This document shows positions 1-6,584 of a stretch of DNA of 9,797 bases, one piece after another (the first letter of the stretch is position 1; each line of letters begins with the position of its first letter). Position numbers and translations under genes: made by a program. Under the pieces are notes generated by a model. The model saw only the letters and a program-made list of their open reading frames with translations, had not been told where the DNA came from and did not search any database. Source of the DNA: Dehalococcoidia bacterium (lineage in GTDB: Bacteria; Chloroflexota; Dehalococcoidia; Dehalococcoidales; RBG-16-60-22); the NCBI GenBank assembly GCA_013202615.1, contig JABMRL010000235.1, forward strand, positions 1 through 9,797, in the 5' to 3' direction.

Positions 1-825
1 CTGGACCTCGATGGACTGAAAAAGAACGTGGACTTCCTGATTAAAAACGGCGTCATCCAGATAATGTGTCTGGGCAGCACCGGTGAAGCCGCTACCCTGA
101 CCAGAGAGGAGAACATCAGGGTAATCGAGGCCACCGTAAAAGCGGCCAATGGCAGGGTTCCCGTTATGGCCGGTACCGGCGCCACCAGCACCCGCGAGGT
201 CATCGAGCGTTCCAAAGAAGCCAGAAGTGCCGGCGCCGATTCGGTAATGATTGTCACCCCGTTTTACGAGATACCCAATCAGGAAGGCCTGTATAAACAC
301 TATGTCTCCATCGCAGAAGCGGTGGACATCCCCATCTGCCTTTACAACATTCCGCCGCACACTCAGGTCGAGATTGCGCCCGAGACACTGGAGAAGCTGG
401 CCGACATCGATAATATCGTGGCTTTGAAGGACAGCAGCAGCAACCTGAGCTATTTCGCCGAGGTGCTGCGACGGGTCGGCGATAAAATGGCGATTCTGAC
501 CGGCGGCGACGATATCGCCCTGCCCTGCTTTGCCCTCGGCTGCCACGGCGCCATACTGGCACTGGCCAACATCGCACCGCGCATGGTGGTCGACCTCTTC
601 CAGGCTGTCCAGCAGAAAGAGAGCCAGAAAGCGCTGGATATCTTTTTCAAGCTGCTGCCCATCTCCCGCGCCATAAGTGTCGCCCAGAACTTCCCCGCTC
701 CCGTGAAAGAAGCGGTCACCATGCTCGGCAGACCGGCCGGCCCCGCCCGCAGCCCCATAGTACCGCAGGGCAACGCGGAAAAAGAAGAGATTAAGAAAGC
801 GCTGCAGTACGCCGGACTATTGTAG
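1..825 (+). CDS. DapA/NAL-family class I aldolase or lyase (5' partial)
   Basis: The reading frame is open from base 1, so the gene begins upstream of the window; 274 residues are visible and roughly 20 N-terminal residues are missing against the usual 290-300. The fold is the TIM barrel of the dihydrodipicolinate synthase/N-acetylneuraminate lyase family. Visible family marks are GSTGEA near residue 25 (the pyruvate-carboxylate loop, GTTGE in DapA), the catalytic Tyr in LYNIPPHTQ (TAC at 343-345) and the Schiff-base Lys in ALKDSS (AAG at 427-429). The arginine that DapA has in its YNVPSRTG loop, used to bind aspartate semialdehyde, is His here (358-360). I therefore infer a catabolic keto-acid aldolase or dehydratase and not the lysine-pathway enzyme. 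The gene ends in TAG, 18 bases before an enolase-superfamily gene, and is probably the upstream member of a three-gene operon. The family is sure; the substrate is unknown. Confidence 0.9.
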   Translation: MDLDGLKKNVDFLIKNGVIQIMCLGSTGEAATLTREENIRVIEATVKAANGRVPVMAGTGATSTREVIERSKEARSAGADSVMIVTPFYEIPNQEGLYKHYVSIAEAVDIPICLYNIPPHTQVEIAPETLEKLADIDNIVALKDSSSNLSYFAEVLRRVGDKMAILTGGDDIALPCFALGCHGAILALANIAPRMVVDLFQAVQQKESQKALDIFFKLLPISRAISVAQNFPAPVKEAVTMLGRPAGPARSPIVPQGNAEKEEIKKALQYAGLL

Positions 826-843
826 AAAAGGGGCAGAATCATC

Positions 844-1962
844 ATGAAAATCACCGGCGTTGAAGCCATTGAACTGCGCCTTCCCGAATCATATTCCGGG
901 CCGCGCCTAATCGTCCGCCAGACACTGATTATAAAAGTCCATACCGACGAGGGCATCGTCGGCATCGGTGAGGTTGATTCCTGCCCCATGGTAGTCAGGG
1001 CTACAGTTAACGCCCCACCAGCTAACAGTCCTATCTCCGGTCTGGCCAGCGTCATCATCGGCGAGAACCCGCTGGAAATCCGCCATCTCAACGACAAGAT
1101 GTATGAGGCCAGCTTTGACTACGGCCGGGGCGGCGTCGTCTTCCATACTATCGGCGGCATTGATATCGCCCTCTGGGATATTGCCGGCAAATACTACAAC
1201 CAGCCGGTGTACCGGCTTCTCGGCGGTCCGTTCCAGACCAGGATACCTGCTTACGCCAGCACTCTTTTCGGCAGTAACGGAAAGGAGACCGCGGAAGAAG
1301 GTAAAAAGTGGGCCGGCAAAGGTTTTACCTCGGTCAAGTTCGGCTGGCACCCGATGGGACAGAGTGAAAAGCTTGACCTGGAGCTTGTCGAGGGAGCGCG
1401 GCAGGGCATCGGCGATAACCGCAACCTGCTGGTTGACGCCGGCTGTTGCTGGGACACCGCCACCGCCATCAAGCGTGCCCAGCAGTTTGAGGACTACAAT
1501 CTTTTCTGGCTGGAAGAACCTCTCGCCCGGGACAACATTGATGGATACAAACAGTTGAGCACCGTGTCGCGGATACCGATTGCCGCCGGCGAGGGAGAGG
1601 CCGGGCGTTATGCTTTTAGAGAGCTGCTTGAGCACGGCGGTATTCACATCGCACAGATTGACCTTGTCCGTAACGGCATCACCGAGACGATGAGAATTGC
1701 TGATATGGCGGAAGACCGGGGCTTGAAAGTGGTCAACCACCACTGGAGTTCCGATATCAATCTTGCCGCCAGTCTTCATTTCCTCGCGTCCCGGAAAAGC
1801 ACCTTCATCCTGGAGTACTGCGTGGCGGAAAGCCCGCTCCGGTGGGAAGTGACCAGGGAAAAAATGGGGCTTGATGCCGAAGGTTATGTCCACGTACCGG
1901 AAGGGCCGGGGTTGGGCATCGAATTGAATGAAGAGACAGTAGAACGCTACCGGGTTAATTAA
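844..1962 (+). CDS. Enolase-superfamily enzyme, mandelate racemase/muconate lactonizing type (probable acid-sugar dehydratase)
   Basis: The 372-residue product has the N-terminal capping domain (about 1-125) followed by the modified TIM barrel. The Mg ligands appear in order: Asp198 (LLVDAG), Glu224 (WLEEP) and Glu250 (IAAGE). The mandelate-racemase-type His-Asp dyad is Asp273 (QIDLVRNG) and His299 (VVNHHW). On the second strand the sequence is SVKFGW, so Lys165 is present, but Gly167 stands where mandelate racemase has its second, general-base Lys; this fits a dehydratase using the His side better than a racemase. Enzymes of this group abstract the alpha proton of a carboxylate and often dehydrate aldonic or aldaric acids to 2-keto-3-deoxy acids. 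The ATG lies 10 bases after AAGGGG (828-833). A flanking DapA-family aldolase and a phosphotriesterase-family hydrolase suggest a shared catabolic route. The exact substrate is not readable. Confidence 0.9.
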   Translation: MKITGVEAIELRLPESYSGPRLIVRQTLIIKVHTDEGIVGIGEVDSCPMVVRATVNAPPANSPISGLASVIIGENPLEIRHLNDKMYEASFDYGRGGVVFHTIGGIDIALWDIAGKYYNQPVYRLLGGPFQTRIPAYASTLFGSNGKETAEEGKKWAGKGFTSVKFGWHPMGQSEKLDLELVEGARQGIGDNRNLLVDAGCCWDTATAIKRAQQFEDYNLFWLEEPLARDNIDGYKQLSTVSRIPIAAGEGEAGRYAFRELLEHGGIHIAQIDLVRNGITETMRIADMAEDRGLKVVNHHWSSDINLAASLHFLASRKSTFILEYCVAESPLRWEVTREKMGLDAEGYVHVPEGPGLGIELNEETVERYRVN

Positions 1963-1977: not shown

Positions 1978-3045
1978 ATGGAGAAAAAACTTGCGGGCAA
2001 AGTGCAAACGGTACTGGGCCTGATTGACGGCGATGAGCTGGGACTGACCACGCCTCACGAGCACCTTCTCCTCGACCTGACCGTGCGCTTCAAGCTCATG
2101 GATGGAAGCGTCACCGCCAGGACCATAGCCGAAAAACCGATGTCGCTGGATATGGCGGGCTGGATTCGGTTTCACCTCTTTGAGAACCGGGACAACCTGC
2201 TGCTTGATGATGAAGCGCTGGCAATCGAGGAAATCACGCGCTTTAAGCTCGCCGGAGGGAAGAGCGTGGTGGACGTCACCAACTGGGGCATCGGGCAGGA
2301 CCCGCACGCCATGACCCGCATTGCCCGCACCACCGGCCTCAATATCATCATGGGCACCGGCTACTACACTATGGATTCCGGCTGCGCCGAAGCGCTGGCC
2401 AAAAAATCGGAGGATGAGATTTGCCAGGAAATCATCGATGATATTACCACCGGTACCGATGGTATCTGCGCCGGTATAATTGGTGAAATCGGGGCTGACT
2501 CCTGGCCGCTTCACGATATCGAGATAAAATCACTGCGGGGGTCGGTTAAAGCCCAAAAGGCCACCGGCGCCGGGCTGACCATCCACCCTGGCCGCTTTGA
2601 CGAGTCACCGCTTCAAATCGTTGACATCGTTAAAAAAGCCGGCGCCGATATGAGCCGGGTGGTCATCGAGCATATCGACCGCACCGCCTACACCTTCGAC
2701 ACAATGGTGGAAATCGCCAAAGCCGGGTGCTACCTTGAATTCGATTGCTTCTCCATGGAGGGCTACTACCCCAAGCGCTATGGCGTGTTCGATATTCCCA
2801 ATGATGCCCAGCGTGTCAACTATATCATCCGGCTCATCGAACTGGGTTACCTGAACCAGATACTCATCGCCACGGACACGGCCATGAAATCTCGACTGAC
2901 AGCCTACGGTGGCCCGGGCTATGCCCACATCCCGGAAAATGTCATCCCCTGGATGCGCGCCAAGGGCATGTCTGAGGAAACCATCCGCGCCATTTCCGAG
3001 GAGAACCCGAAACGACTTTTAACCTTCGTTGCGCCGTCGCGGTAA
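1978..3045 (+). CDS. Phosphotriesterase-family metal-dependent hydrolase (lactonase/esterase-like)
   Basis: This 355-residue protein is an amidohydrolase-superfamily barrel of the phosphotriesterase (PTE) family. The binuclear-metal ligands are visible: His27 and His29 (TPHEHLL), His203 (TIHPGR), His232 (IEHIDR) and Asp300 (IATDTA). The bridging position, a carbamylated Lys in PTE and PTE-like lactonases, is Glu170 (IIGEIG), as in the E. coli phosphotriesterase homology protein. The usual family ending, ENPKRLL, is present. The start is supported by GGGAGG at 1968-1973, 4 bases ahead of the ATG and 15 bases after the previous stop. Known relatives hydrolyse lactones or phosphodiester-like substrates, and native phosphotriester hydrolysis is rare. 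Beside a putative acid dehydratase and a keto-acid aldolase, a lactone-opening role is a reasonable inference. It is the last gene of the plus-strand operon and converges on the methyltransferase genes. Confidence 0.88.
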   Translation: MEKKLAGKVQTVLGLIDGDELGLTTPHEHLLLDLTVRFKLMDGSVTARTIAEKPMSLDMAGWIRFHLFENRDNLLLDDEALAIEEITRFKLAGGKSVVDVTNWGIGQDPHAMTRIARTTGLNIIMGTGYYTMDSGCAEALAKKSEDEICQEIIDDITTGTDGICAGIIGEIGADSWPLHDIEIKSLRGSVKAQKATGAGLTIHPGRFDESPLQIVDIVKKAGADMSRVVIEHIDRTAYTFDTMVEIAKAGCYLEFDCFSMEGYYPKRYGVFDIPNDAQRVNYIIRLIELGYLNQILIATDTAMKSRLTAYGGPGYAHIPENVIPWMRAKGMSEETIRAISEENPKRLLTFVAPSR

Positions 3046-3080: not shown

Positions 3081-4466
3081 TCACAGGTAAGGCGAAGTGA
3101 GAGGCAGCTTCACTCCGAACTGCCCGGTAAATCTTTGCCTCATCTTCCGGTAGAATTCGATGCATTCTTTATTCGGCTTCCCGGAAGCGATGTCGAAATA
3201 GTCCGGCAATTTCTTACCAAGCGGCGGGTCTTTCAGTTTATCCTCGTAATTCCCTATCAGCTTCGCCACTATCGTATTTGCTTCTTTACGGCTCATGCCC
3301 GCGGACGCATGGGCTACGGCATTGGCGAAAATATTCTCCAGGGGGTCGCTGTAATCCTCCATGGTGCCTCTTGAGGGAGGTCCCACCTCAACGGAACCGC
3401 CGGATACCACCGTCGCCATCACCCAGGCAGCGAACTCATCGTAGCACATTTCGGTCATCGGTCCGGCCGAGGTATAGCCAGGGGCAACTATGGGCAGCGG
3501 GCTGTTCCGGGTAGCTGCCTGAATCGCCAGGCTCCGGGCCCAGATAACTTCCCGATTGGACGTCGTGCCGCCTTCAACGGGGACTGCCAGCGGGTGCTGC
3601 ACCACGCCGCGTGTAACGAGAATGTCCACCGGATTGTAGGCGGCGCACACCACCGCCACCCCCACCGGGCCACCGGCAAATCCGCCCAGAATCACGCCGT
3701 TCTCGGCGAAAGTCAGATTCCCCACTGCCCGGCAGTAAGCTACTTTGTTCAAAGCATCGAAGTCAACTTTCAGTTCATGAATGGTACCGATTTCCAGGGT
3801 ATCAGTCTTGGGATTGCCGAAGGCATGACCGGCGATATGCTCCGTCGCCCGCACCGCCGACGCCACTTCGTTGACCACAGGCATCCCCGGACGCCCGGCG
3901 CGGCGCAGCGCCTCACGTACCAGAATCACCGTCCTGATGGCGCCTTCCACACCCCGGGGACTGCCGGCCACCAGGTCTCGGCCGTCCAGATTGGTAAGGC
4001 ACGGTGCGGTGATACCGCAGGACAGCGGGTCTTCCGCATAGGCCTTCACGACATTAATCAGGTTCCACTCGGTAGAGACCGGCCCGGCTCCGCAGCCGGA
4101 GCACCAGGGAAGCGTCTTATCCTCGGGAACACGCCTCGGCATCAACCGGGCATCTCTACCATCCCCGAAAACCACGTCGCGCGGGGCCGATTCAAGCGCA
4201 CCCTCTATCTCCTCCCGCGTGAACAGGATGCGCCTCTCCGTATCCAGGCAATATACGCCGGTCTCGACCAGGAACTCCATTCCTGCTTCCCAGACGCGGT
4301 CAGCCAGGTCGTCATCAGAGGGCACCGGGTTCTGCGGGTCATATTTAATGCCGTACTTCTCAATTATCTTGCGCAAGTTGGGCACGAAAATGTCAAGGTC
4401 AAAGTCGCGTTCCGTGCAAATCGGGCCGGTTAACGCCCTCTCCACAACCGTATCAAAGCTGAGCAT
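3081..4466 (-). CDS. MtmB-family corrinoid methyltransferase lacking pyrrolysine, paralogue 2
   Basis: The 461-residue product aligns along its length with monomethylamine:corrinoid methyltransferase MtmB (about 458 residues): CTERDFDLD near the N terminus, GVYCLDTER, AGRPGM, IHELKVD, GGFAGG, SAGPMTEMC and the C-terminal LGKKLPDYFD region. MtmB moves a methyl group from monomethylamine to a Co(I) corrinoid protein, using pyrrolysine as the reactive residue. Here that position, two residues after AGRPGM, is a valine codon GTC at 3873-3875. Glutamates matching the MtmB active-site acids are kept (IHELK, FAENG), as is the Tyr of PGYTSAGP. The loop after PWCS (GCGAGP) departs from MtmB and from the upstream paralogue. 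I chose the second ATG of an ATGATG pair: AAGGAG at 4474-4479 is 7 bases from it against 4 for 4469, and its N terminus then matches the paralogue exactly. Family confidence is high; the substrate is unknown. Confidence 0.88.
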   Translation of the reverse strand: MLSFDTVVERALTGPICTERDFDLDIFVPNLRKIIEKYGIKYDPQNPVPSDDDLADRVWEAGMEFLVETGVYCLDTERRILFTREEIEGALESAPRDVVFGDGRDARLMPRRVPEDKTLPWCSGCGAGPVSTEWNLINVVKAYAEDPLSCGITAPCLTNLDGRDLVAGSPRGVEGAIRTVILVREALRRAGRPGMPVVNEVASAVRATEHIAGHAFGNPKTDTLEIGTIHELKVDFDALNKVAYCRAVGNLTFAENGVILGGFAGGPVGVAVVCAAYNPVDILVTRGVVQHPLAVPVEGGTTSNREVIWARSLAIQAATRNSPLPIVAPGYTSAGPMTEMCYDEFAAWVMATVVSGGSVEVGPPSRGTMEDYSDPLENIFANAVAHASAGMSRKEANTIVAKLIGNYEDKLKDPPLGKKLPDYFDIASGKPNKECIEFYRKMRQRFTGQFGVKLPLTSPYL

Positions 4467-4473
4467 CATTCGT

Positions 4474-4479
4474 CTCCTT
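4474..4479 (-). promoter_or_regulatory. Ribosome binding site of MtmB paralogue 2
   Basis: AAGGAG on the minus strand sits 4 bases before the ATG at 4469 and 7 bases before the ATG at 4466. The longer spacing is the better one and favours the second ATG. The 57 bases between the two methyltransferase genes (4470-4526) show no hairpin that I can see, so co-transcription is expected. Confidence 0.7.
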
Positions 4480-4526
4480 CATTTTTATGGCTACTCTACC
4501 TGATTAACCTTTCCATACTATTGAAA

Positions 4527-5915
4527 TCAAATGTAAGGCGAGGCACTGGTCAGCCGAATGCCAAACTGGTCAGCCATCTCTCGCCTGACCTCCCGGTAAA
4601 GCTCAAGAAACTCCGGTTTCGGCTTTCCGGTTACGGGGTCGCAGCATTCCTGGTATTTCTGTCCGACGGGAGGCTCGCGGAGCTGTGATTCATATTTCTC
4701 CAGCAGAGCCTTCACGATGCCATCGGCTTCCCGACGACTCATGCCGGCCACAGCGTGAGCTACCTCGCTGGCCAGGAGAGGCTCCACCGGACTGGTATAG
4801 TCAAGAGCGGTACCTCTTGCCGATGCCCCCACCTCAACCGAACCACCGGAGACCACCGAGGCAATAACCCAGGCGCAGTGTTCATAGAAGAGCATCTTGG
4901 TCATCGGGCCTGCCGCGGAATAGCCAACGTTTACCACCGGCAGGGAGCTGTTGCGGGTAACGGCCTGATTGGCCACGCTGCGCGGCCAGAGAGTATCTCG
5001 CGCCGAGGTAACACCGAGGTCAAAATGGGTCGGGAAAGGGTGCTGTACAGCGCCCCGCAGAAGCAGCAGGTCCACCGGATTATAGGCGGCCGTCACTACA
5101 GCCACGCCGGCCGGTCCGCCGGCCAGTCCGCCCAGTATGACCCCATTCTCGGCAAAAATCAGGTTCCCGGCGGCCAGCGAATAGGCCACCTTGTTCATGG
5201 TGTCAAAATCGACCTTCATCTCGTGGATGGTACCGATTTCCAGCGCGTCCGTCTGACGGATGCCAAAGTGGCTGGCAGCGATGTGTTCCTGTGCCCTGAC
5301 CGCCGTGGTAACGCCATTGACGATAGGCATCCCCGGTCGCCCGGCGCGGCGCATGCCCTCGCGCGTCAGCAGTACCGCCCTGATGGAGCCCTCTACCCCC
5401 AGAGGACTGCCGCCAACAATCGGTTGCCCATCTACGCTGGTGAGGCAGGGTATGGTAATCCCATCCCCCAATGGATTTTCAGCGTGTGCCTTTACCAGGT
5501 TGACATAGTGCAACTCCGATGAAAGCGGCGAGGAGGTCGGTCCAACCGAACACCACGGTAATGTCGTATCTTCGGGGACACGCCTGGGCATGACCCGGGC
5601 ATCCCGGCCCTCACCGAAGACGCGACCGCGCGGGCCTGATGCCAGCGCACCCTCTATTTCTTCACGGCTGAAGAGAATCCGCCGTTCGGTATCAACACAG
5701 TAGACCCCGGTCTCGATAAGGAATTCTATTCCCGCCTGCCAGACCCTGTCCGCAAGGTCATCATCAGCAGGCACCGGGTTCTGCGGGTCATATTTAATGC
5801 CGTATTTCTCAACCGCCTTGCGCAAATTAGGCACGAAGATATCGAGTTCGAAATCCCGCTCCGTGCAGATAGGGCCGGCAAGTGCTCTCTCAACGACCGT
5901 CCAGAAACTAATCAT
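4527..5915 (-). CDS. MtmB-family corrinoid methyltransferase lacking pyrrolysine, paralogue 1
   Basis: The product has 462 residues, is clearly homologous to the downstream paralogue (well over half the residues identical by eye) and to MtmB. It is the more MtmB-like copy: GPTSSPLSSE (125-134) resembles the MtmB GGPTGSPISED loop as I recall it, and GQKYQECCD resembles GKTFQECYD near the C terminus. The pyrrolysine position after AGRPGM (191-196) is Val199, codon GTC at 5319-5321, which is not one base from TAG. Glu232 (IHEMK), Glu256 (FAENG) and Tyr332 (VGYSAAGP) keep the active-site acids and tyrosine. It presumably demethylates an unknown small methylated compound onto the corrinoid protein encoded just upstream. 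The start is supported by AAAGGAG (5924-5930), 8 bases before the ATG. The gap to the corrinoid gene is 15 bases. Monomethylamine itself as substrate is doubtful without pyrrolysine. Confidence 0.9.
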   Translation of the reverse strand: MISFWTVVERALAGPICTERDFELDIFVPNLRKAVEKYGIKYDPQNPVPADDDLADRVWQAGIEFLIETGVYCVDTERRILFSREEIEGALASGPRGRVFGEGRDARVMPRRVPEDTTLPWCSVGPTSSPLSSELHYVNLVKAHAENPLGDGITIPCLTSVDGQPIVGGSPLGVEGSIRAVLLTREGMRRAGRPGMPIVNGVTTAVRAQEHIAASHFGIRQTDALEIGTIHEMKVDFDTMNKVAYSLAAGNLIFAENGVILGGLAGGPAGVAVVTAAYNPVDLLLLRGAVQHPFPTHFDLGVTSARDTLWPRSVANQAVTRNSSLPVVNVGYSAAGPMTKMLFYEHCAWVIASVVSGGSVEVGASARGTALDYTSPVEPLLASEVAHAVAGMSRREADGIVKALLEKYESQLREPPVGQKYQECCDPVTGKPKPEFLELYREVRREMADQFGIRLTSASPYI

Positions 5916-5930
5916 ATACCCGGCTCCTTT

Positions 5931-6584
5931 CTACTTCTGCGCTACCGCTTTCAACGCCAGAGTGGTCGCGTCACCGGCGGTCCTGCCGTATCCGTCAGCA
6001 CCGATACTGTCCGCCCACTCCTGGCTGGTCGAGCCGCCGCCGACCAGTACACAGTACTTGCCACGCGCGCCACGCGCCTCAATATGCTCGATAATGCTCT
6101 TCTGCTGCGGGATGGTGGTGCTCATCAGCGCCGAGGCAGCAATGATATCGGCACCGACTTCCTCCGCTTTGGTGACAAAGGCGGAGGCGTTAACATCAAC
6201 TCCGAGGTCAAAGACCTCGAAGCCGCTCATCTTTAACAACGCCCCGACGATGTTTTTCCCGATGGAGTGGATATCCCCCTTCACCGTGCCGATGACCACC
6301 CGCCCCGTTTTCTTCCGCTCGCTTCCTGATTCCAGCAGTTTCGGCTCCAGAATCTGCATCGCGCCCTCCCATGCCTCCGCCGCCATCATCATTTCCGGCA
6401 GATATATCTCATACCGGGCGAATCGTTCGCCAACCTCTTTCATACCGGGTGACATCCCTTTTTCAATTATGTCCGAGGGCGTGACACCCTCTTTCAGAGC
6501 ATCACCAACCCCCTGTTCCAGACCGCTTTTGTCGCCGGCGATAAGGGCATTATTCAATTTTTCAAAACTAGACTCGTCCGACAT
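5931..6584 (-). CDS. Corrinoid (B12-binding) methyl-carrier protein, MtmC/MtbC type
   Basis: This 217-residue cytoplasmic protein carries the methyl group on a cobamide between a substrate methyltransferase and an acceptor methyltransferase. The N-terminal four-helix cap (about 1-90) includes YLPEMMMAAEAW. The Rossmann-like B12 domain follows, with the full base-off/His-on signature GDIHSIGKN (Asp104, His106, Gly109), then ASALMST (Ser151, Leu153) and VGGGSTSQEWADSIGADGY (181-199). AAGGAG at 6591-6596 lies 6 bases before the ATG. It is the first gene of the C-B-B cassette, matching the mtmC-mtmB order of methanogens, and one carrier probably serves both methyltransferases. The gene ends in TAG (5931-5933), which lies in frame with the next gene; see the separate finding. 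Dimethyl- or trimethylamine carriers (MtbC, MttC) look very similar, so the exact subtype is open. Confidence 0.93.
   Translation of the reverse strand: MSDESSFEKLNNALIAGDKSGLEQGVGDALKEGVTPSDIIEKGMSPGMKEVGERFARYEIYLPEMMMAAEAWEGAMQILEPKLLESGSERKKTGRVVIGTVKGDIHSIGKNIVGALLKMSGFEVFDLGVDVNASAFVTKAEEVGADIIAASALMSTTIPQQKSIIEHIEARGARGKYCVLVGGGSTSQEWADSIGADGYGRTAGDATTLALKAVAQK

Follow-up and report, generated by a model that had tools for sequence, protein, structure and literature searches.

Introduction

The MtmB homologue MtqB (ACT9XH_RS04775) of Methanococcoides methylutens Q3c, which lacks pyrrolysine (Pyl), demethylates tetramethylammonium and choline (PMC13044021, March 2026), and the same paper presents a phylogeny of 1,061 MtmBs with and without Pyl. 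A non-Pyl member of the family was also the most increased protein on dichloromethane (PMC9768040), and 'mtm, mtb, mtt' open reading frames in three Dehalococcoidia metagenome-assembled genomes (MAGs) from Lake Towuti were read as aiding CO dehydrogenase (PMC11650866). Pyl systems of one Chloroflexi group are treated in PMC5424206, the available text of which does not deal with the clade described below, and a UroD-family system is reported in PMC13222342; MtmB is not mentioned in the available text of PMC5736913. Here we describe a cassette of one corrinoid protein gene and two tandem Pyl-free MtmB-family genes, located on a 9,797-nucleotide stretch (hereafter the window, meaning this stretch at its full length) that is one entire contig of a MAG of 1.34 Mb and 76.6% completeness. 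The genome has Dehalococcoidia affinity, in agreement with the non-methanogen host proposed in the initial annotation.

We consider it about an even chance that these genes form a putative N-demethylation cassette, in which one corrinoid protein serves two diverged Pyl-free MtmBs and the methyl group passes to Co(I) and then to tetrahydrofolate and the Wood-Ljungdahl pathway. The substrate would be an as-yet undescribed one. Non-Pyl MtmB homologues, one of them characterised (MtqB), and methylamine methyltransferase annotations in Dehalococcoidia are already known (PMC13044021, PMC11650866), and the statement of the initial annotation that no characterised Pyl-free member of the MtmB family was known to it is not supported. 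As far as the literature was searched, the new elements are the clade, an active site like that of Pyl-MtmB without Pyl, the two-paralogue cassette and the link to aminotransferases.

Organization and family assignment of the cassette genes

The cassette lies on the minus strand, where the reading order is prfB, a peptidase MA-like gene, radC, the corrinoid gene and the two MtmB-family genes. The first cassette gene (5931..6584, minus strand) encodes a corrinoid protein of 217 amino acids that resembles the methyl carriers MtmC and MtgC, and its terminal TAG codon was read as a stop. It is followed after 15 bases by the gene of MtmB-b (4527..5915, minus strand) and, after a further gap of 57 bases, by that of MtmB-a (3081..4469, minus strand); both proteins have 462 amino acids and they are 66% identical to each other. 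A GGAG-type ribosome-binding sequence precedes each of the three genes, and both MtmB genes start with ATG, end with TGA and are free of internal stops. The coordinates, the strand and the mtmC-mtmB order of one corrinoid gene and two methyltransferase genes had been given correctly in the initial annotation. A third MtmB copy, cut by a contig end at 440 amino acids, is found on a separate contig of the same genome.

The two methyltransferases match PF05369 (MtmB) with 280 bits for MtmB-a and 297 bits for MtmB-b, against a cut-off of 25, over nearly the whole profile (positions 6-445 and 4-447 of 450). Neither protein matched a further Pfam family at E 0.001, PF06253 of the MttB superfamily included, and a PF06253 search of the window genome gave no match. 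The structure of MtmB-b, predicted from an alignment of 109 sequences, is a confident model with the TIM-barrel fold of MtmB, and its best fold match is 1nth. With PF05369 as the sole Pfam match and 1nth as the best fold match, the MtmB assignment stands as first proposed.

The absence of Pyl was likewise borne out, as neither methyltransferase gene contains an in-frame TAG. In the ungapped register, which runs from GRPGM (192-196 versus 195-199 in MtmB1 of Methanosarcina barkeri) through Glu226, Glu256 and Tyr332 (versus Glu229, Glu259 and Tyr335), the Pyl202 column is occupied by Val199 (GTC) in both proteins; one MAFFT alignment places Asn200 there instead. The two codons, 199 and 200, that align to this place in MtmB1 are located at 5316..5321 in MtmB-b (GTC and AAT) and at 3870..3875 in MtmB-a (GTC and AAC), both on the minus strand. 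PylB (TIGR03910), the sole pyl gene sought, was not found in the window genome at its 76.6% completeness, and no tRNA was found on the window contig. In NCBI, relative P0003 and others carry the label 'monomethylamine:corrinoid methyltransferase [Dehalococcoidia bacterium]'.

Two observations were made on the pyrrolysine column of other homologues. Five full-length proteins that are 44-57% identical to M. barkeri MtmB1 (P0121, P0122, P0123, P0128 and P0132) have Gln, Gln, Cys, Thr and Met there, respectively, and this is either the way in which the source translated TAG or a sign of genuine Pyl-less close relatives of MtmB. A Bathyarchaeota MtmB homologue (L058:5666-7045) contains an in-frame TAG at codon 263 of a 460-codon match, off the pyrrolysine column, and its homologue on L065 is stop-free.

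Active-site columns and phylogeny

Glu229, Glu259 and Tyr335 (MtmB1 numbering) are all kept in MtmB-a and MtmB-b. This triple was observed in 44 of the 189 aligned rows, some of the remaining 145 being gapped at the active-site columns. Thirty-nine of the 44 belong to the window clade as it entered the tree and, with many close kin among them, do not count as 39 independent cases; the five others (MtmB1, P0121, P0122, P0123 and P0141) all fall within the pyrrolysine-MtmB group. Nine more rows have Asp-Glu-Tyr, and those of them that are among the rows listed belong to the pyrrolysine group as well. Four sister rows carry Leu (three) or Met (one) at position 229.

Ten gappy rows of the 189 were left out of a first tree, and L067 could not be scored for the active site because it is cut before those columns. 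A second tree (IQ-TREE, quick search) was computed from 71 of the 189 rows, picked by hand and not including MtqB. The window group, the pyrrolysine group and a group from Asgard archaea, Desulfobacterota and Formimonas each form a single branch, with Shimodaira-Hasegawa-like approximate likelihood ratio test (SH-aLRT) values of 100, 99 and 100, and the window branch takes in all 14 chosen rows, its sister P0115 included (SH-aLRT 100). A union of the window and pyrrolysine groups as one clade was rejected by the approximately unbiased (AU) test (p 9.25e-05), and the shared glutamates must therefore have been regained, or be ancestral and lost elsewhere; parsimony requires three changes of the acidic pair when either Glu or Asp is accepted at 229 and Glu at 259. 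The initial annotation had named a position inside a biochemically characterised clade as grounds for refutation; in this tree, which is without MtqB, the window proteins lie outside the clade of the Pyl enzymes. Methanococcoides entries were absent from the 58 rows of one search and from the 120 listed of 1000 matches of another.

In the window clade, 21 rows of the MtmB-b type form a group (support 0.90) separate from the a and c types; the 14 a/c rows used for the comparison are themselves only weakly supported as a group (0.36), and three or four additional rows lie next to them. The b type differs from a/c in 22 columns, which include 201, 203 and 206 around the pyrrolysine site as well as 298-300 and 302. 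Because both types occur in the relative L017, as single genes with 80% and 70% identity to their window counterparts, the duplication appears to predate the divergence of L017.

The cassette genes are not there by chance: their ratios of nonsynonymous to synonymous substitution (dN/dS) against the congener L105 are low, about 0.09 for MtmB-a, about 0.07 for MtmB-b and 0.13 for the corrinoid protein, and indicate purifying selection like that on radC (0.11). MtmB-family genes are present in all six genomes of the genus, the window genome included, and PF05369 was matched in 12 of the 393 genomes sampled from the class; the MtmB proteins of L011 (Dehalococcoidia bacterium) are 97-98% identical to those of the window. 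Five Anaerolineales/Chloroflexi stretches (L059, L061, L063, L066 and L068) combine two to four MtmB paralogues with two or three corrinoid genes in some 14-21 kb, which suggests that the families of methyl donors are large.

Corrinoid protein and probable methyl acceptor

The corrinoid protein matches the B12-binding domains PF02607 and PF02310 and contains, at residue 104, the sequence DIHSIG, an instance of the DxHxxG motif that we take to supply the cobalt ligand. It scores below every NCBIfam cut-off listed, with 222 bits for NF047995 MtgC (cut-off 310) and 209 bits for TIGR02370 (cut-off 215.3). A corrinoid gene is present on 64 of the 77 MtmB stretches fetched. A further one, adjoining a URO-D-family methyltransferase gene, was seen elsewhere in the window's own genome (L079, G000:C261), together with genes that resemble SDR and dehydrogenase genes by eye. 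On C162 (L080), the gene that follows a corrinoid gene is not assigned to the URO-D family, as it had no Pfam match at 1e-10.

The window genome encodes Wood-Ljungdahl proteins on three other contigs, namely Fhs (formate-tetrahydrofolate ligase), FolD, AcsD, CODH and a RACo-type activator on C48, AcsC and an AcsE-like protein on C104, and ACS on C25. Their Pfam matches are clear; the AcsE-like protein (220 versus 259 bits), AcsV (637 versus 800) and a CODH cut by a contig end (411 versus 478) remain below their NCBIfam cut-offs, and FolD is above none of the 25 models shown. MtrH was sought in the window genome and gave no match. In four of the six congeneric genomes (G395, G394, G393 and G307) a methyl-tetrahydrofolate:corrinoid methyltransferase gene (NF005719, 324 bits versus a cut-off of 259 for the G307 copy) stands directly before a second RACo-family gene, and a class III aminotransferase gene, 59-60% identical to that of L017, lies one to three genes away. 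In the distant relatives L106, L109 and L110, the same type of methyltransferase gene, alone or with RACo, adjoins the corrinoid and MtmB genes. The Wood-Ljungdahl genes and this context together make it likely that the methyl group passes to tetrahydrofolate, by way of a putative partner of the cassette.

The four cluster stretches (L134-L137; G395:C165, G394:C35, G393:C78 and G307:C82) also contain genes of an iron-dependent alcohol dehydrogenase and a PanB-like protein beside the aminotransferase, methyltransferase and RACo genes. Two of them have an ADP-ribosylglycohydrolase-type gene, and L137, in which the methyltransferase gene lies at 5053-5847 and the RACo gene at 3226-5052, has a MtaA/CmuA-family protein above its NCBIfam cut-off.

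Gene neighbourhood in relatives

Aminotransferase genes accompany the MtmB genes in several relatives. On one strand of L015 we found an OCD-family alanine-dehydrogenase-like gene (TIGR02371, 408 bits, just below the cut-off of 409), the corrinoid gene, MtmB-b and a class III aminotransferase gene. The order on L017 is corrinoid, MtmB-b and aminotransferase, followed by another aminotransferase and MtmB-a; on L067 it is aminotransferase, corrinoid and MtmB before the contig ends, and on L020 an alanine dehydrogenase gene (TIGR02371, 415 bits versus 409) precedes MtmB-a. The neighbours on L014 are epimerase, MmgE/PrpD, DeoC-type and dehydrogenase genes, with no aminotransferase, alanine-dehydrogenase-like or TRAP transporter gene. 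The third MtmB copy (L004, L018 and L108) is accompanied by a convergent glutamate-semialdehyde-aminotransferase-like gene and a TRAP transporter, and on L018 (8208-9890) carboxyltransferase C_D and A_B genes of the 5-oxoprolinase/allophanate-hydrolase type lie directly upstream of it.

Of 27 stretches from the window clade and its nearest sister clades, 8 carried a class III aminotransferase gene, versus none of the 50 others (Fisher test, p 1.1e-4); counted by synteny type, the figures are 6 of 16 versus 0 of 50 (p 8.8e-5). These values serve as description only, as the clades were delimited with the tree already in view and the synteny types were assigned by eye. Congeneric genomes contain four to nine class III aminotransferase genes each. 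The aminotransferase neighbours hint at an amine as the product.

Three genes on the plus strand of the window converge on the cassette. The first (1..825), cut by the contig start, encodes a DHDPS/NAL-family lyase (PF00701; TIGR00674 dapA, 256 bits, cut-off 206). The second (844..1962) encodes an MR/MLE enzyme of the enolase superfamily that resembles sugar-acid dehydratases (PF13378 and PF02746; best solved relative 3sjn, 267 bits) and has no NCBIfam model above its cut-off. The third (1978..3045) encodes a PTE-family hydrolase (PF02126), whose nearest solved chain is that of a phosphotriesterase-related protein (9efa, 261 bits). A hydroxyproline-betaine pathway was considered for the MR/MLE and DHDPS genes and set aside: the structure codes of its epimerase were not among the 60 listed of 180 PDB matches, and the MR/MLE protein passed no NCBIfam cut-off. 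PTER hydrolyses N-acetyltaurine and N-acetyl-beta-alanine (PMC11374699; PMC13311154), and a taurine or beta-alanine pathway suggested by the PTE gene is kept as a hint only.

Proposed function and alternative explanations

In the N-demethylation reading, a methyl group would leave the nitrogen of an amino compound for the Co(I) of the corrinoid protein. Glu226, Glu256 and Tyr332 might hold the cationic substrate with its methyl group toward the corrinoid, in place of the covalent pyrroline adduct, and the paralogues, with their differences near Pyl202 and at 298-302 of MtmB1, may each accept one of two related substrates and use a common carrier. The second transfer would be made by a methyl-tetrahydrofolate:corrinoid methyltransferase with a RACo-type activator, both encoded elsewhere, so that the methyl group could enter the Wood-Ljungdahl (acetyl-CoA) pathway through tetrahydrofolate. 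A class III aminotransferase may then act on the demethylated amine, and the pyruvate may be recycled by alanine dehydrogenase. A narrower form of this proposal is that the clade is the Pyl-free counterpart of true MtmB and demethylates N-methylated amino or omega-amino acids, for example of the N-methyl-beta-alanine and N-methyltaurine types, with the class III aminotransferase receiving the amine and the Wood-Ljungdahl pathway the methyl group; we put it forward tentatively, as a rather improbable specification.

Several points weigh against N-demethylation through such an active site. The catalytic role of Glu229, Glu259 and Tyr335 in MtmB1 is our assumption, and a literature search on it found nothing. 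Gln333 of MtmB1 is replaced by Pro or Val in the window proteins, and P0115 (64% identity), the nearest sequence beyond the clade, reads Glu-Ala-Tyr, with Ala at 259. The methyl-tetrahydrofolate methyltransferase cluster was not found in the window genome (76.6% complete) or in G326; where present, it is without MtmB, and URO-D proteins occur on three and another corrinoid protein on two of its four stretches, so that it may serve those proteins. The aminotransferase link comes from relatives, compared in clades set after the tree was seen and on stretches of unequal length: the window contig has no aminotransferase gene, its cassette being flanked by the DHDPS, MR/MLE, PTE and radC genes instead, and that of the third copy is convergent and thus outside the MtmB transcript. 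Finally, the closest proven function, that of MtqB, is the demethylation of quaternary amines.

The last point leads to the alternative that survives best, possible though still improbable, namely that the window proteins are MtqB-type demethylases of choline, tetramethylammonium or betaine, whose acidic pocket binds a permanent cation. The sole proven non-Pyl MtmB acts in this way (PMC13044021), the non-Pyl MttB enzymes listed in PMC9768040 use glycine betaine, proline betaine, carnitine and gamma-butyrobetaine, and the MtgC model is the best-scoring one for the corrinoid protein, though under its cut-off. However, the window clade is apart (SH-aLRT 100) from the Asgard/Desulfobacterota/Formimonas group, which is the nearest proxy for the organisms of the MtqB paper in a tree that does not contain MtqB, and the three active-site columns read EEY here versus mostly LLF, FLF or ILF in that group.

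The convergent genes raise the unlikely possibility that the substrate is a methylated sugar acid or similar small acid, processed by demethylation, hydrolysis of a lactone or amide, dehydration and aldol cleavage. All three stay beside MtmB in the window, L011, L016, L019 and L105, and PTE also in L013, at the edge where that contig stops; L011 continues with genes of a hydrolase, an aldo/keto reductase, an HPP membrane protein, an Iso_dh-family dehydrogenase and a family-5 solute-binding protein. They share no transcript with the cassette, however, because they lie on the opposite strand; they were not found on L014, L015, L017, L020, L067 or beside the third copy (L004 and L018), and shared descent may explain the synteny.

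Organohalide respirers occur in Dehalococcoidia, and the cassette might demethylate or dehalogenate a C1 donor that is not an amine, such as a halomethane, as the dichloromethane-linked MtmB homologue of Candidatus Formimonas warabiya might. The case for this, which we regard as quite unlikely, is strengthened by the log fold change of +11.87 of the non-Pyl protein Ga0180325_111810 with dichloromethane (PMC9768040), but the Formimonas homologue compared here (L035, which may differ from Ga0180325_111810) is 39% identical, belongs to another clade and lacks the two glutamates. That the genes are relics or mis-annotated, without enzymatic role, is very improbable: their same-strand neighbours are housekeeping genes (radC and prfB), but they have intact frames, a confident fold, radC-like purifying selection and counterparts in 6 of 6 genus genomes.

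Comparison with known systems

The clade provides a natural contrast for the role of pyrrolysine, as it has the same two glutamates and tyrosine, no Pyl, and a separate branch. If its members demethylate protonated or secondary amines, pyrrolysine would be dispensable for such chemistry; if they use only quaternary amines, this would support the idea that the part of pyrrolysine is to convert simple amines to adducts of quaternary character. The cassette also suggests catabolism of N-methyl compounds in Dehalococcoidia, a group known mainly through uncultured genomes.

The gene order of the MtmB1/MtmC system of M. barkeri is presumably the same as that of the window. MtmB1 (PDB 1nth, 1l2q and 1tv2) shares the fold over the whole length, about 30% identity and Glu229, Glu259 and Tyr335 with the window proteins, which differ from it in Val for pyrrolysine 202, Val or Pro for Gln333, a separate clade and a host in which PylB was not found. 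L035, a family member of Ca. Formimonas warabiya DCMF, is like the window proteins bacterial and Pyl-free, with an adjoining corrinoid gene; unlike them it has Leu in place of each of the two glutamates. MtgB/MtgC and other non-Pyl MttB systems (PDB 2qne and 9yce) work in a similar way, by corrinoid-dependent N-demethylation that feeds tetrahydrofolate in bacteria. The Lake Towuti MAGs are of the same class and share methylamine methyltransferase annotations, a likeness at the level of annotation only in the available text, which does not discuss pyrrolysine (PMC11650866). MtqB/MtqC resembles the window cassette in having a Pyl-free MtmB-family protein beside one corrinoid protein, whereas, compared by description only, it has a single methyltransferase, a methanogen host and coenzyme M as the methyl acceptor.

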